Below are positions 8,449-60,036 of a DNA stretch of 64,000 bases, piece after piece. The notes beneath the pieces are model-generated. The model was not told the origin of the DNA and did no database searches. It saw only the letters and a list, made by a program, of their open reading frames with translations. The stretch is from the NCBI GenBank assembly GCA_016207165.1, contig JACQQD010000003.1, forward strand, positions 47,343-111,342, in the 5' to 3' direction. The translations under genes were made by a program, and so were the position numbers. This DNA is from Microcaldota archaeon. GTDB taxonomy: Archaea; Micrarchaeota; Micrarchaeia; Norongarragalinales; Norongarragalinaceae. The stretch's first letter is position 1. Each line of letters starts with the position of its first letter.

Positions 8449-9591
8449 GTGAAGTTCAACACGAAAGCGGTTCACGCCGGAGAAAAACCGGATTCCGCCA
8501 CCGGGGCCCTGGCAACGCCCATTTATCAGACGAGCACGTACGCCCAGGACGCGCCCAACCAACACAAGGGCTTCGATTACAGCCGGGCGGCCAACCCCAC
8601 CCGGCAAATCCTGGAAAACAATTTGGCGGCCCTGGAAAACGTGGATTACGCCGTGGCATTCTCTTCGGGCTTGGCGGCCACAAGCTCGGTGTTGAACTTG
8701 TTCAAGCAAGGCGACCATGTGGTCGCGTCACAAGACATGTACGGCGGCACGTACCGGTTGTTCAAGCAACTCTACGAAAAATACGGAGTCACCTTTGATT
8801 TCGTTGACGCGACGAACTCGGACGCCCTGCAATCCGCCATCAAACCCAACACCAAACTCGTATGGATTGAAACCCCCTCCAACCCGCTTCTCAAAATTAC
8901 GGACATCAAAGCCGCCGCCGCCATCGCCCACGACGCCAACGCGCGGTTGGCCGTGGACAGCACCTTGGCCACGCCCCACCTACAACAACCCTTTTCCTTG
9001 GGGGCCGACTTGGTCGTGCATTCCACCACGAAGTACCTCAACGGACACGCCGACGTCATCGGCGGCGCGGTATGCGTCAAAGACAAAACCCTCTACGAAC
9101 AGTTGCGCTTCTGGCAGAAGTCCGTGGGATCGGTTCCGGGCCCCCTGGATTGCTATTTGGTGTTGCGCGGAATCAAGACCCTGCCGCTTCGCATGGACCA
9201 GCACTCCAAGAACGCCATGACCGTCGCCCAATTCCTGCAAAGCCATCCCAAAGTCAAGCGCGTCATTTACCCCGGACTTCAAAGCCACCCCCAACACGAA
9301 TTGGCGAAAAAACAGATGACCGCGTTTTCAGGAATGATTGCCGTGGAATTGGACGCCTCCTTTGAAAAAGCCATGGCGTTTGCCTCCAACTTGGAACTGT
9401 TCACCTTGGCCGAGGACTTGGGGGGAGTCAAGAGCCTGACGTGCCACCCGGCGTCCATGACGCACGCCGCCGTCCCAAAACAAGAACGCCTCAAAACGGG
9501 ATTCACCGACGAACTCATCCGCCTGAGCATCGGCATCGAGGACGCCGACGACCTCATCGAAGACCTTGAAAAAGCGCTGGACCCATTGTAG
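8449..9591 (+). CDS. Cystathionine gamma-synthase/gamma-lyase
   Basis: GTG start; KFNTKAVHAGEKPDSATGALATPIYQTSTY, YSRAANPTRQ, HSTTKYLNGHADVIGG. Confidence 0.92.
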   Translation: MKFNTKAVHAGEKPDSATGALATPIYQTSTYAQDAPNQHKGFDYSRAANPTRQILENNLAALENVDYAVAFSSGLAATSSVLNLFKQGDHVVASQDMYGGTYRLFKQLYEKYGVTFDFVDATNSDALQSAIKPNTKLVWIETPSNPLLKITDIKAAAAIAHDANARLAVDSTLATPHLQQPFSLGADLVVHSTTKYLNGHADVIGGAVCVKDKTLYEQLRFWQKSVGSVPGPLDCYLVLRGIKTLPLRMDQHSKNAMTVAQFLQSHPKVKRVIYPGLQSHPQHELAKKQMTAFSGMIAVELDASFEKAMAFASNLELFTLAEDLGGVKSLTCHPASMTHAAVPKQERLKTGFTDELIRLSIGIEDADDLIEDLEKALDPL

Positions 9592-10998
9592 ATGAATATG
9601 CCGAAATTCTTCAACACATTGACCCGCAAGAAGGAAGCGTTCAAGCCCCTCCAGAACAACTTAGTGCGCTGGTACGCATGCGGCCCCACGGTGTACAATT
9701 ATCCCCACATCGGCAACTACCGCGCGTACGCGTTTGTTGACTTGCTCCGCCGCTTTCTGGAATGGAAGAACTACAAAGTCATGCTGGTCATGAACATCAC
9801 GGATGTGGACGACAAAACCATCCGCGACTCCCAAAAACAAGGCAAAACATTGGAAGAATTCACGCGGTTCTACGAGAAAGGCTTTTTCGAGGACCTGCAA
9901 ACACTGAACATTAAGCCCGCTAACTACTATCCCAGAGCCACGGACCACATCAACGACATGGTCAGCCTCATTGGCGAATTGACGCTGGCCCACAAGGCGT
10001 ACCAAGGCTCAGACGGGTCATGGTACTACAAGATTTCCGAGTTCTTGGACTACGGCAAGCTCTCGGGCCTCCAACAAAAGGACTTGAAAGCCGGAGCCTC
10101 CGGCCGCGTGGCGGCGGATGAATACACCAAGGACAACGTCTCCGACTTCGTATTGTGGAAAGCCTGGCAGCCAGACGACGGCGACGTGTACTGGGAAACC
10201 CGTCTTGGAAAAGGAAGGCCCGGCTGGCACATTGAATGCTCCGCCATGAGCACCAAGTACCTGGGGTTTAGCTTTGACATCCACACCGGCGGCGTGGACT
10301 TAAAATTCCCCCACCACGAAAACGAGATTGCCCAGTCGGAAGGCGCGTCCAAAAAACCGTTTGTCAAGTACTGGCTGCACAACGAGCACCTCCTGGTTGA
10401 AGGCAAGAAAATGTCAAAATCCCTGGGCAACTTCTACACGCTGCGCGACTTGTTGGACAAAAACCTCAAACCCGCGGCCATCCGCTACGCGCTCATTGCC
10501 ACGCACTACCGAAGCCAACTGAACTTCACGTTTGACGTGGTGCACGCCGCAGAAAAAACGCTGGACCGCCTCCAAGACTTTTTGGCTCGAGCGAAAGAAG
10601 CGGATGGAAAAAACAATCCCGGCTTGGAAAACGCGATCAAAAACACGAAAAAACGATTTGAAGACGCGTTGGACGACGACTTGGACGTCGCGCAGGCCCT
10701 CTCGGCGGTCTTTGAACTGGAGCACCAAGCCAACAAGGCCATGGCGCTGGGCCACGTCTCCAAAAAACAAGCCGAACGAATCGCAGACTTCTTTTGGAAC
10801 GATTTTAACGCGGTCTTCGGCGTCCTGGAAAAAAAGTCCGCCACCGTGCCGAAAACCGTTTTGGACCTCGTGGAGAAACGGGAAGCCGCCCGAAAAAAGA
10901 AGGACTTCAAGGCCGCGGACGCGCTTCGAAACCAAATCAAGGAAAAGGGCTTCGAGGTCGTGGACGAGGCCACTGGGCCCCGGCTGAAAAAAACCTAA
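9592..10998 (+). CDS. cysS: Cysteinyl-tRNA synthetase
   Basis: YACGPTVYNYPHIGNYRAYAFVDLL, WHIECSAMS, KMSKSLGNF. Confidence 0.97.
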   Translation: MNMPKFFNTLTRKKEAFKPLQNNLVRWYACGPTVYNYPHIGNYRAYAFVDLLRRFLEWKNYKVMLVMNITDVDDKTIRDSQKQGKTLEEFTRFYEKGFFEDLQTLNIKPANYYPRATDHINDMVSLIGELTLAHKAYQGSDGSWYYKISEFLDYGKLSGLQQKDLKAGASGRVAADEYTKDNVSDFVLWKAWQPDDGDVYWETRLGKGRPGWHIECSAMSTKYLGFSFDIHTGGVDLKFPHHENEIAQSEGASKKPFVKYWLHNEHLLVEGKKMSKSLGNFYTLRDLLDKNLKPAAIRYALIATHYRSQLNFTFDVVHAAEKTLDRLQDFLARAKEADGKNNPGLENAIKNTKKRFEDALDDDLDVAQALSAVFELEHQANKAMALGHVSKKQAERIADFFWNDFNAVFGVLEKKSATVPKTVLDLVEKREAARKKKDFKAADALRNQIKEKGFEVVDEATGPRLKKT

Positions 10999-16924: not shown

Positions 16925-16995
16925 ACGCTTTTTAAGCGGTGTTTTCATGCGTTGTAGGCTTCTGTTCCTTTCAAACTGAAAGGTGATTGTACAAC

Positions 16996-17490
16996 ATGTC
17001 CAAACTGACGATTCCCGCCATGGTGGAAGGCGGCAAAGCCTCCGCCGGCCCGCCCCTGGGTCCCGCACTGGGCCCCACCGGACTGAACATCGGGCAGATC
17101 ATCGCGCAAATCAACGAGAAAACGAAGGCCTTCGCCGGCATGCACGTGCCCGTGAAAGTCGTCGCCGACCCCAAGACCAAGACGTTTGAAATCGAAGTCG
17201 GCACGCCACCCACGTCCGCGTTGCTCAAAAAAGAAGCCGGCATCAAGGAGCCCGTCAAGGAGACGGAAGGCGAGAAAGGCAAGAAAACCATCGGCAACTT
17301 GTCCTTGGACCAAGTCATCAAAGTCGCTCAATCCAAGAAAGACCAGTCCCTGGCCAAGACCCTGAAAAGCCGGGTCAAGGAAGCCGCCGGAACGTGCCTG
17401 TCGTTGGGCATTACCGTGGAAGGCAAAAACCCCAAAGAATTCATTGCCGACGTCTCCGCCGGAAAACACGACGCCAAGCTCAAGGACTAG
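16996..17490 (+). CDS. rpl11: Ribosomal protein L11
   Basis: VEGGKASAGPPLGPALGPTGLNIGQIIAQIN. Confidence 0.96.
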   Translation: MSKLTIPAMVEGGKASAGPPLGPALGPTGLNIGQIIAQINEKTKAFAGMHVPVKVVADPKTKTFEIEVGTPPTSALLKKEAGIKEPVKETEGEKGKKTIGNLSLDQVIKVAQSKKDQSLAKTLKSRVKEAAGTCLSLGITVEGKNPKEFIADVSAGKHDAKLKD

Positions 17491-17636: not shown

Positions 17637-17939
17637 CTAGTGGATGAAGTCCCGCAGCAAGTCCACGGCCTTTCGGATGGATTGGCCGATCTGTTTTTCG
17701 CTCTTGGCGCCGGAACAAATGACTTTGCCGTTCTTGAACAACAACAGCGTGGTTCCGATGTCTTTCAGGCGCATGATGGCGCCGGGGAACTGCTCCGGCT
17801 CGTATTCGACGTTGTCGACTTCCATGGCGATGTTGAACAAATCCAGTTCCACCTTCAAATTGGCGGAGGCGACGATGTTTTCCACCTTGAACGACATGTC
17901 GACATTCCTAGGCAAGCGCTTCTTTGCTTTCTTCACCAT
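17637..17939 (-). CDS. tbp: TATA-box-binding protein, single repeat (half-size)
   Basis: VENIVASANLKVELDLFNIAMEVDNVEYEPEQFPGAIMRLKDIGTTLLLFKNGKVICSGAKSEKQ; only one TBP repeat in 100 aa. Confidence 0.85.
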   Translation of the reverse strand: MVKKAKKRLPRNVDMSFKVENIVASANLKVELDLFNIAMEVDNVEYEPEQFPGAIMRLKDIGTTLLLFKNGKVICSGAKSEKQIGQSIRKAVDLLRDFIH

Positions 17940-18074
17940 AGAGCCATCACCGTTTTAAATATGCTTTAAAAAACTTGGGGTCCCGCCTTATAAAGCCTCG
18001 GTTTGGGGTTGGAAAGGGAGGTTTATAAAAGGGGAACGGAACACATAGGATATTCTAAATTTCCAGGTGTAACC

Positions 18075-18353
18075 ATGAAGCGATCCAAAGGGGCGCATTC
18101 CAAGCGCTCCCGAAACCTCCGCGCCAAGGGCCGCGTGGCCATCACGCAGTTTTTGCAGGAATTCAAGGCCGGCGACCGCGTGCGCATCGACGTGAACACC
18201 AACGTGCTTCGCGGACGGCCCACGACCCTGCGGTTTAACCGCAAAACGGGTCTGGTGCTCGGAAAGCAAGGCAAAGCCTACTGCGTGCGCATTCAAGATG
18301 GCGGCAAACCCAAAGAGATGTTCATCCTGAACGCCCACCTCGTCAAGGTGTAA
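18075..18353 (+). CDS. rpl21e: Ribosomal protein L21e
   Basis: MKRSKGAHSKRSRNLRAKGR...VRIDVNTNVLRGRPTTLRFNRKTGLV. Confidence 0.92.
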   Translation: MKRSKGAHSKRSRNLRAKGRVAITQFLQEFKAGDRVRIDVNTNVLRGRPTTLRFNRKTGLVLGKQGKAYCVRIQDGGKPKEMFILNAHLVKV

Positions 18354-18355
18354 AA

Positions 18356-18685
18356 ATGGAATTGATTCAAACCAAGCCCGTATCCATTCCCGAGTCGCTT
18401 GACTTGCTTTTGAAGCGCCAGAAAGACGGAGAACTGGGGTACGAACAGCAAAACACGTTGACGCATCTGGAAGCCGTGGCCAAGATGGACGGAAAAGACG
18501 CTAAGGCCATGGAAAAAGAGCTCAAGGCCGCCGTGGCGTCGATTTCAGACGCTCAGCTGGCCGCGCTCGTCTCGATTGTGCCCAAGAACGCCGATGACGT
18601 GCGCCAGGTGCTGGCCCAAGAGAAAAGCGAGGCCACCGAAGACGACGTCAAGAACATCCTGGCTATCCTGAAAGCCAAAAAATGA
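18356..18685 (+). CDS. rpo4: RNA polymerase subunit Rpo4 (RpoF)
   Basis: Rpb4-like sequence in conserved L21e-Rpo4-DUF655-RsmA order. Confidence 0.85.
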   Translation: MELIQTKPVSIPESLDLLLKRQKDGELGYEQQNTLTHLEAVAKMDGKDAKAMEKELKAAVASISDAQLAALVSIVPKNADDVRQVLAQEKSEATEDDVKNILAILKAKK

Positions 18686-57253: not shown

Positions 57254-57394
57254 GACCGTAAAAACCCAGAAAAAAGGCTAAAAAGGCCGTTGAACCTTCT
57301 CCGGACCAACGGCAACACGTCAAGACGGATTAACCCTCCCTGCATCGGCCTTCTCTCCTGAAGAGAGGCTTTCAGACAGTTTAATATAAACCTT

Positions 57395-57407
57395 GAGTTG
57401 ATTTTTT
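57395..57407 (+). promoter_or_regulatory. Recurrent promoter motif copy 4 (KaiC operon)
   Basis: TTTAATATAAACCTTGAGTTGATTTTTT upstream of 57478. Confidence 0.5.
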
Positions 57408-57477
57408 GTATACCGTTCCCTCGCTATCTGTCGAAGAGATATAAAAGGGAAACGGGCATGAAAGAGTTGGCCGGTAA

Positions 57478-58239
57478 ATGGGAGAACGTAAGAAAACAGG
57501 TATCTCAGGGCTTGACAAAGCACTTAATGGAGGGATACCAAACGGGAACATAGTGTTGATTTCTGGTGGAGCAGGCACTGGGAAAACAACGCTATGTCTT
57601 CAATTTTTGGTAGAAGGGGCAAAAAATGGGGAAAAAACGCTATACATAAGCACCGAACAAAACGACGGAGAAATAAAACGCCAAGCTGAGCCATACGGGT
57701 GGCAAATAGCAGAACTTGAAGAAAAAAACTTGTTCAAAGTGCTGCACGTTAATATCTTGAAAGATGAAGATAATCTAGAAAAAATAAAAAAAACAATTGA
57801 AGAGCTTAAGCCAGAACGGATAGTTCTTGATTCTTTAAGTACATACTCAGACTACACTGCGGTAACACAATACGCAAGAGAACTCCTTTTAAAACGTGGC
57901 GGGGTCGCTCAGAGAGCTATAGATCAAATCATGCCTCAAAACATATCAGAAAAAGTAATCATAAAGCGAATGCTAGCAACACTAATAAATGACCTGAAAA
58001 GCCCCGGCGCAACGACACTAATCACATCGGAGTTACCCGAAACAAAAGGCCAGCTAAGCTCCGATGGAATTTCAGAATTCTTAGCAGACGGGGTCATATT
58101 GCTGTACTATTGGGAAATTGGCGAAGTAGAAGAACATGCAATGAAGATAAGGAAAATGAGGTACACCCCTCACGATTCTAGAGCGTTAATGTACAACATG
58201 AGCCGAAGTGGTATAGAAGTAAAAGCAGGAGAAATCTGA
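57478..58239 (+). CDS. KaiC-like RecA-superfamily ATPase
   Basis: TGISGLDKALNGGIPNGNIVLISGGAGTGKTTLCLQFL; RKMRYTPHDSRALMYNMSRSGIEV. Confidence 0.9.
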   Translation: MGERKKTGISGLDKALNGGIPNGNIVLISGGAGTGKTTLCLQFLVEGAKNGEKTLYISTEQNDGEIKRQAEPYGWQIAELEEKNLFKVLHVNILKDEDNLEKIKKTIEELKPERIVLDSLSTYSDYTAVTQYARELLLKRGGVAQRAIDQIMPQNISEKVIIKRMLATLINDLKSPGATTLITSELPETKGQLSSDGISEFLADGVILLYYWEIGEVEEHAMKIRKMRYTPHDSRALMYNMSRSGIEVKAGEI

Positions 58240-58913
58240 TGGAAAACACTAATAGTCTAAAACACGTGTTTGTTATTCCCGATGGAAACAGACGCTGGGC
58301 GAGAGAGAACAAAAAGACATACAAAGAGGTCTACGAGAAGGTCGCCATGGAAATTACGCCGAACTTAATTGAAGAGGTCTTACTAAAACAGGGAGTTCAA
58401 GAACTAACAATATTCATGCTTTCACGAAGTAACTTGATAAAACGAAGTCTTGACGAAGTACTACCTATTCTAAAGGCCCAAGAAAGACTATACGGCTGGA
58501 TTTCAGAAAATAAGGTGATGCAGAAATCGGGGGCTAGTTTTAAAGTAATTGGAGACAAGACGCTCCTGCCAAGATCATACTTAGATGCCTGTGAGAGATT
58601 AGAAAAAATTAACCATGGGAAAAAAAAGTGTAATTTTCTGGTCGGATACGATGCTGAATGGGAGCTACTCCAAGCAGTCAAAAAAATCGAGAGAATCGAA
58701 AGCGCAGACATTGTAAAAGAGCTAGCTCTAAACTCTGAAATTGATTTAATGATTAGAACGGGATTTGAGCACAGAATTTCGGGCGGCCCACTAATACAGC
58801 TGAAATTTGCAGAGTTAGTTTTCTGTGATTTTCACTACCCAGAATTGACTCGGAAAAAAATTCAGGAGATAATTAAACAATACGGAAAAAAGGAAAGGCG
58901 ATTCGGAAGATGA
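58239..58913 (+). CDS. cis-Prenyltransferase (UPP synthase family), divergent
   Basis: VFVIPDGNRRWAR; DLMIRTGFEHRISGGPLIQLKFAELVF. Confidence 0.85.
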   Translation: MENTNSLKHVFVIPDGNRRWARENKKTYKEVYEKVAMEITPNLIEEVLLKQGVQELTIFMLSRSNLIKRSLDEVLPILKAQERLYGWISENKVMQKSGASFKVIGDKTLLPRSYLDACERLEKINHGKKKCNFLVGYDAEWELLQAVKKIERIESADIVKELALNSEIDLMIRTGFEHRISGGPLIQLKFAELVFCDFHYPELTRKKIQEIIKQYGKKERRFGR

Positions 58914-59476
58914 TGGAATTTCTACAAAAACTATTAATGATGCGGCAGTTCCAAATGGGTAAAGGCAGAACGACAATACTGGGTCAGAGAGTGCTACTGG
59001 GACCAGTAGAAATACTCGTACCGGCAACACAATTAGCAATAGACCAACCATTAGAAGGGGCAAAAATATACGAAAAGGTTAGAACAACATTTAATGAGGG
59101 TTGGTCGGAAGCAGTAAGAAAAATGTACGGTATAAAGTCTCAAGACTATTTTAAATTCTTAATAGATATGTCAAATCTCGGAGGGTGGGGCGATGGCAAG
59201 TTAATCGAATTCGAACCAGCCACACTCGAAGGTAAATTCATTAACTACAATACGGCAATGGCAGAGTATTTCAAAGGAAAAACAAGCAGACCAGTAGACC
59301 ATATTTGGAGAGGATTGGCCGCAGGGGGGCTTACTAAAGCTTTTAAGACAGAAATAGACTGGTTTGAAACTAAATGCATCGCATGCGGCGAAGATAGATG
59401 CGAATACATTTTTAAACCAAGAAAAAAATTCGAGGAAAATAGAATAAAAGAAATAGAATACCAAATACCAATATAA
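58910..59476 (+). CDS. V4R-domain protein
   Basis: IWRGLAAGGLTKAFKTEIDWFETKCIACGEDRCEYIFKP. Confidence 0.75.
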   Translation: MMEFLQKLLMMRQFQMGKGRTTILGQRVLLGPVEILVPATQLAIDQPLEGAKIYEKVRTTFNEGWSEAVRKMYGIKSQDYFKFLIDMSNLGGWGDGKLIEFEPATLEGKFINYNTAMAEYFKGKTSRPVDHIWRGLAAGGLTKAFKTEIDWFETKCIACGEDRCEYIFKPRKKFEENRIKEIEYQIPI

Positions 59477-59478
59477 CG

Positions 59479-60027
59479 CTAGAACTGAAGCGGCAGAGGT
59501 TGATTCGGGAAACTTGAGGAAATTGGCGACCAATAATTGAAAAAGGCACGCGACAGCTTTTGCCAATTATGATTACGATGCGCTAGGCGAATTTCGAAAA
59601 ACATAGTGAAAGTAGACCTAGCAACTAAGATTGGCCTAAACAGACCAAATTTGAAGTAATGTTCAAGTAGCAAATTTAGTAAAATGCTAAACAAATTAGA
59701 ATGGCGATATGCTCGAATCCAGCCCACACGGAATTGCACAGATGCAGTTTCCTGACCTAACAAGTTATGTGCCGAGACAAATTCGTTTTTGATTTTAGAA
59801 TAGTAATAATCTTCCCGCGTTGAATCACCAGACAACTGGCAATTTCTAGCTAAATCTGCATATTGAAAAGTTTTCAAGACGTGTCTCGAAGCACCGACGG
59901 CTTTTTTTCTTGGAAAGCCTAATATAACTAAAAAGGAAACGCAACACGCTAACAACTCAGGCCACTTTTTTTCGTCATGAAACCTCCAAAGATTGGAATG
60001 CAATTTTCCGATTTGAAATAATTTCAT
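59479..60027 (-). CDS. Hypothetical protein in AT-rich island
   Basis: 182-aa ORF with ATG start; no recognised family. Confidence 0.5.
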   Translation of the reverse strand: MKLFQIGKLHSNLWRFHDEKKWPELLACCVSFLVILGFPRKKAVGASRHVLKTFQYADLARNCQLSGDSTREDYYYSKIKNEFVSAHNLLGQETASVQFRVGWIRAYRHSNLFSILLNLLLEHYFKFGLFRPILVARSTFTMFFEIRLAHRNHNWQKLSRAFFNYWSPISSSFPNQPLPLQF

Positions 60028-60036
60028 AAAAAGAGC

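Follow-up and report, generated by a model that had tools for sequence, protein, structure and literature searches.

The TBP Locus

The gene described herein lies in a window of 64,000 nucleotides (the whole stretch of DNA that was analyzed) and encodes a TATA-binding protein (TBP) of 100 aa with a single TBP repeat. A codon-based gene call found the open reading frame (ORF) at 17637-17939 to be strongly coding and placed it between L11 and L21e-Rpb4, and the following features were recognized:

16987..17490, plus strand: ribosomal protein L11, convergent neighbor (PF03946/PF00298)
17637..17939, minus strand: one-repeat TBP gene, 100 aa, ATG at 17939 and TAG at 17637-17639
17646..17894, minus strand: TBP repeat, residues 16-98 (strand, helix, four strands, helix), with N21, E47, E49, F51, and F68 conserved
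17895..17939, minus strand: short basic N-terminal tail MVKKAKKRLPRNVDM, read from the sequence
17940..18074, no strand: divergent promoter region from the TBP gene to L21e, read from the sequence
around 17965-17976, minus strand: AAGTTTTTTAAAG, which fits the BRE+TATA pattern (putative box, from the sequence and the genome motif)
18022-18029, plus strand: TATA-like TTTATAAA (putative box, from the sequence and the genome motif)
18075..18353, plus strand: ribosomal protein L21e, conserved divergent neighbor of TBP (PF01157, 63.6 bits)
18356..18685, plus strand: RNA polymerase subunit Rpb4/RpoF, conserved neighbor (PF03874, 39.3 bits)

A divergent L21e gene upstream had already been noted in a sequence-only reading of this DNA and was confirmed in the present study; the strand of the TBP gene, which that reading did not give, is minus, and L11 is located downstream in a convergent orientation. 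L11 is conserved beside TBP at the loci of both genomes of the same genus, and the order in which TBP is divergent from L21e and then Rpb4 was observed in Micrarchaeota, the small phylum of genome G213, and Iainarchaeota, for one-repeat as well as two-repeat TBPs, which makes these TBPs positional orthologs. Since the gene stands divergent from L21e-Rpb4 in the same manner as the two-repeat TBPs of its relatives, the 100-aa protein is the general TBP of this archaeon and not a side paralog. Elsewhere in the window, a region of 2.8 kb (57254-60036) had no called gene, tRNA, or Rfam match, which is unusual at a coding density of 86%.

A Single TBP Lobe

The protein (MVKKAKKRLPRNVDMSFKVENIVASANLKVELDLFNIAMEVDNVEYEPEQFPGAIMRLKDIGTTLLLFKNGKVICSGAKSEKQIGQSIRKAVDLLRDFIH) gave a single match to PF00352, at residues 16-98 and over the whole profile (1-85/85), scoring 98.2 bits (cut-off 22.9). 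NCBIfam models of two-repeat TBPs aligned only one repeat, with scores far below their cut-offs, and every TBP in the PDB that was matched by this query had two aligned stretches. The frame downstream of the gene contained nothing TBP-like, and no second TBP repeat was detected when all six frames of the entire genome (1.27 Mb in 12 contigs) were searched with PF00352 at E<=10. With one repeat in the protein and no other in the genome, the canonical architecture of two tandem repeats is not present. The earlier proposals that this ORF holds one repeat and that the downstream frame is not TBP-like were, thus, substantiated, and the whole-genome search for a full-length two-repeat TBP returned 17637-17939 as the only place matched, a result that applies to a genome approximately 90% complete and limits the reading as the sole TBP to that extent.

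The AF2 monomer was predicted to be a whole TBP lobe (pLDDT 91.7), which matched one lobe of the Methanocaldococcus jannaschii TBP 2z8u at 0.9 A rmsd over 81 columns (Foldseek E 8e-8). The intercalating Phe residues F51 and F68, which the sequence-only reading had correctly regarded as kept, were invariant, together with the central Asn N21 and the Glu pair E47/E49, in the sampled single repeats of the own order and other Micrarchaeota. Glu at both of the latter positions has been described as a C-lobe signature for contact with TFB/TFIIB (PMC7221094), and all of the DNA- or TFB-contacting residues that were checked are retained. The N-terminal tail is longer and lysine-rich in many relatives.

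Architectures of TBP Among Relatives

In the 28 further genomes of the own order, exactly one TBP repeat above the cut-off was present in 25, none in three, and two in no genome, with the search for a second repeat being conducted at E<=1; the ORFs involved were about 93-182 aa, with one repeat each. These genomes are approximately 60-91% complete and, therefore, a second TBP gene would be expected to be visible in most of them. A search among relatives for one-repeat PF00352 proteins beside L21e/L11 had been suggested; one-repeat proteins were found in these 25 genomes, the arrangement with L21e-Rpb4 is conserved in Micrarchaeota, and L11 is present at the loci of the two same-genus genomes. 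The nearest loci trace back to public records of Candidatus Micrarchaeota MAGs that were generated in independent studies.

A survey of the phylum (196 genomes, at least 188 with a TBP) revealed three architectures among the matches listed: one-repeat genes in the own order and families f9, f11, f12 (one to three copies), f14, and f17; a pair of separate one-repeat genes per genome in f10; and two-repeat proteins of approximately 190-230 aa in f8, f13, f15, f16, f18, f20, and others. Two genomes consist of one contig each. The Micrarchaeota genome G066 (771,545 bp) has exactly one one-repeat TBP gene among the matches listed, and G056 (952,257 bp) carries one-repeat genes at two separate places (119,095 and 881,769), with no two-repeat TBP being found on its single contig. 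G056 is presumably the co-cultured 'Ca. Mancarchaeum acidiphilum' Mia14, the published complete genome of which is 952,257 bp (PMC5498576). The second f10 gene forms a long branch in the repeat tree (support 100, length 0.82) and scores 75-90 bits with PF00352; it is a fast-evolving paralog of the one-repeat gene and not a separated C repeat.

Several further variants were observed. Genomes of f12 (G043, G051, and G054; loci L062, L063, L064, and L065) each carry two to three TBP genes of the one-repeat type that are nearly identical, and in G051 two of these lie approximately 1.3 kb apart; we attribute these multiple genes to the repeated copying of the one-repeat gene. In several genomes of the G213 phylum (L265, L266, L267, L268, L272, and L273), a second, distinct one-repeat type (MENKYNIKIVNMVASANF...) is present beside the usual one with support of 98 in the repeat tree, and is a candidate for an independent heterodimer. 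Four TBP matches were found in G101 (f10), an adjacent pair of which (C43:2733-3251) lies in a 185-aa frame with the top score among the matches listed, and may be a two-repeat TBP that was acquired in addition to the split pair. Moreover, PF00352 matched a 726-aa ORF (L274:508-2685, G229:C8 about 9538-10695) in four stretches (237 bits), corresponding to four TBP-like repeats; the long region C-terminal to them contains a hydrophobic segment that resembles a membrane span, such that the protein appears to be membrane-bound or secreted. A 218-aa ORF (L276:1090-1743, G236:C1 about 24198) combines a lipoprotein-like signal (LAVAILLAGC) with two TBP-like repeats (PF00352 68 bits), and may represent the use of the TBP fold outside the cell.

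TFB and Promoters

The genome encodes one TFB, which comprises two cyclin repeats in addition to a zinc ribbon and scores 205 bits against the Pyrococcus TFB 1d3u_B. A promoter motif derived from 323 genes consists of a BRE-like AA followed by a T/A box of 7-8 bp, starts preferentially between -49 and -34 relative to the start codon, and reached a lnL of 512 versus at most 230 in dinucleotide shuffles. TFB and the BRE-TATA motifs are both present genome-wide, and their joint use with the one-repeat TBP is suggested by these sequence data. The width of the T/A box is the same as that in the two-repeat relative G137. The near-symmetry of the TATA element is also alike (correlations 0.88-0.93) in one-repeat (G000 and G066), split (G056), and two-repeat (G137) genomes; palindromicity was dropped as an assessment of homodimers because it does not discriminate between these architectures. 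The full width of the TATA box is the only informative promoter feature, and symmetry provides no independent support for a homodimer.

One TBP lobe reads approximately 4 bp in TBP structures. Considering the box of 7-8 bp, two lobes are, therefore, needed on each promoter, and, with no other known source, the second lobe would be a second copy of the same protein.

Proposed Pairing of Two Copies and Alternative Explanations

We consider it very likely that the general TBP of this archaeon has been reduced to one repeat and that two identical copies pair into a full saddle on a full-length TATA box. The copies may pair through their first strands, similar to the two lobes of canonical TBP, and the complete saddle would sit on, and bend, the full-length TATA box with four intercalating Phe residues, two per copy. 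Both stirrups would carry the TFB-contacting Glu pair, and polarity would, therefore, have to come from TFB on the upstream BRE and not from the asymmetry of TBP. In archaea, TFB-bound BRE sets polarity, as established by in vitro work. Since a symmetric TBP is unable to set polarity, this role would fall to the BRE, and a BRE-like element is retained. In f10, the gene may have been duplicated with the subsequent divergence of the copies, which would imply heterodimers, and in other families tandem duplication may have rebuilt a one-chain, two-repeat TBP. The AF2 model of one such chain (L100), the two repeats of which are 78% identical, was an ordinary saddle (pLDDT 93.6, pTM 0.84) that resembled solved TBPs (TM about 0.85-0.93), and this prediction indicates that a saddle can accommodate near-identical lobes of this type. 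The sequence-only reading had proposed that a homodimer completes the saddle; homodimerization stands as the most economical mechanism because canonical TFB and full-length TATA boxes are both retained, while the pairing itself is what we infer.

An obligate heterodimer with a highly diverged, unrecognized partner lobe, as the two f10 genes suggest for that family, appears to be improbable. In f10 genomes, the one-repeat gene is indeed accompanied by a distinct second one, which forms a long branch, and a second one-repeat type is also found in the G213 phylum; however, permissive thresholds (E<=10 in the own genome and E<=1 in relatives) revealed no second repeat in the own order, whereas the second f10 copies were readily detected at the scores given above, and the one-contig genome G066 likewise has only one gene among the matches listed. 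It is very improbable that a monomer acts as a half saddle on half of a TATA box, with TFB supplying the remainder. The 100-aa protein alone is predicted to be a complete, stable-looking lobe, and RNase HIII uses a lone TBP-fold domain to bind duplexes (PMC12917281; PMC7221094). Nevertheless, the promoters retain a TATA element of 7-8 bp with two half-sites, similar to that of the two-repeat relative, and a lone lobe would, judging from known TBP structures, expose the hydrophobic strand between lobes.

A specialized paralog, as the sequence-only reading had offered as its second option, or a non-transcriptional protein with a TBP fold is hardly plausible. TBP-fold domains do serve other proteins, including the secreted-looking L274 and L276; however, the gene encodes the only TBP of the genome at the orthologous, ancestral TBP locus beside L21e-Rpb4, its PF00352 score is strong, and no DNA- or TFB-contacting residue among those checked has been lost. 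The probability that an assembly or frameshift artifact removed a second repeat is close to negligible. Although the data are from a MAG that is approximately 90% complete, the same architecture was observed in 25 genomes of the own order from independent assemblies as well as in further families, one-repeat TBPs are also encoded in one-contig genomes and at loci from independent public MAGs, and nothing TBP-like lies downstream or elsewhere in the genome. At the level of the order, assembly error, which had been named as a possible refutation, was ruled out by the 25 genomes and the one-contig genomes.

Origin of the One-Repeat TBP

An unrooted tree of 107 repeat domains over 87 columns placed all Micrarchaeota, G213-phylum, and Iainarchaeota repeats, including the N and C repeats of two-repeat members, on one side (support 91) and the canonical N and C repeats of M. 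jannaschii, Sulfolobus, Pyrococcus, haloarchaea, and yeast on the other. The same split was recovered (support 95.7) from two-repeat proteins to which archaeal-virus-like TBPs had been added. Forcing all N repeats into one clade cost 90 log-likelihood units (p-AU 4.6e-5), and a single shared N/C duplication was rejected accordingly; within Micrarchaeota, a single N/C duplication was disfavored without being rejected (p-AU 0.085). In N/C log-odds, both repeats of two-repeat members scored +4 to +16 (intermediate to N-like), whereas canonical C repeats were negative in 12 out of 12 cases. A K-N-G-K signature was found in single repeats and in both repeats of two-repeat members, while canonical repeats have Ser at the Asn position in 26 out of 26 cases. 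The repeats of Micrarchaeota two-repeat TBPs are 55-78% identical, and those of the same protein are sisters in L092 and L100.

The occurrence of two-repeat TBPs at the same locus had been regarded as evidence against the reading of a half-size TBP. Such proteins do occur in relatives of other families; however, their repeats do not belong to the canonical N and C groups and appear to be re-duplicated or homogenized. Because both repeats group with single repeats and not with canonical N and C repeats, the two-repeat lineages of Micrarchaeota and Iainarchaeota probably had a one-repeat ancestor that was re-duplicated in several families, or else their repeats were homogenized, as judged from the repeat sequences. 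A one-repeat ancestor of these phyla with re-duplication in several families is the simplest reading; homogenization by gene conversion competes with it and is likely to have played a part in some cases. When identical residues were compared, codon identity ranged from the haloarchaeal background (39-45%) in L092 (45%) and L086 (44%) to 83% in L044 and L251, and recent gene conversion explains only some of the similar repeats. L251 (G229:C3:117373-117897) is a two-repeat TBP, the 377-aa frame of which ends in a long C-terminal tail rich in lysine and alanine; the identity between its repeats, 80% in residues and 83% in codons, indicates recent duplication or conversion. A chimera of the front of repeat 1 and the back of repeat 2, generated by an inter-repeat deletion, was rejected because no left-right pattern was observed; the single repeat is a weakly N-like mosaic.

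Regarding the similarity to a TBP before duplication, which had also been suggested, the present results agree as far as form is concerned, namely, one repeat. A relic and a secondary reduction are equally compatible with the tree, since its unrooted N/C/single topology, based on 87 columns, is the same for both. Single repeats fall outside the canonical N and C groups; their mild resemblance to N repeats slightly favors the reduction of a canonical TBP over a primitive state. It is doubtful that the pre-duplication TBP survives in the one-repeat TBPs of Micrarchaeota and sister phyla, with an ancestral homodimer, canonical TBP arising after this lineage had diverged, and the two-repeat TBPs within the lineage being independently re-invented.

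Comparison with Known Systems

Published work describes TBP as two-lobed and treats its one-lobe ancestor as hypothetical (PMC4910066; PMC7221094; PMC12917281), and a DPANN survey merely counted TBP as present (PMC8407392). In the full-text literature searched, outside of which are subscription papers and preprints, we found neither a report of one-repeat or split archaeal TBPs nor a living example of the one-lobe ancestor, which is a textbook inference. The protein shares with canonical two-repeat TBPs (PF00352; M. jannaschii 2z8u, S. acidocaldarius 1mp9, and P. woesei 1ais) the lobe fold, the Phe pair, the central Asn, the TFB-contacting Glu pair, TATA+BRE promoters, and a canonical TFB, whereas those proteins have two repeats with Ser at the Asn position, and the 100-aa protein has one repeat with K-N-G-K, outside the N and C groups. 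The two-repeat TBPs of other Micrarchaeota and Iainarchaeota (Diapherotrites) are similar in their divergent L21e-Rpb4 locus, K-N-G-K, and side of the tree, and differ in having two repeats per chain, apparently from the later duplication or homogenization of the one-repeat type. Poxviral VETF-l and VITF-3l also have TBP folds in a non-standard lobe arrangement or number (PMC12917281), but are larger (extended bipartite or tripartite), viral, associated with TFIIB-like subunits, and not single lobes.

The postulated one-lobe prototype, which is RNase HIII-like (PMC4910066; PMC12917281), resembles the present protein in its one lobe and in the symmetric dimer predicted on a near-palindromic TATA box; the prototype is hypothetical, whereas the 100-aa protein is real, as either a relic or a reduction. 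Many tiny symbiotic archaea encode a half-size TBP and provide living, even co-cultured, examples of the form postulated as the pre-duplication ancestor. General transcription in a large archaeal group appears to depend on one-lobe TBPs, with homodimeric, heterodimeric, and re-fused versions probably existing within one phylum. The postulated duplication of TBP, thereby, becomes testable with respect to the benefit of asymmetry, polarity under a symmetric TBP, and whether lobes were repeatedly fused, and the split-pair lineage, represented by Mia14 if its presumed identity with G056 is correct, is already in co-culture.
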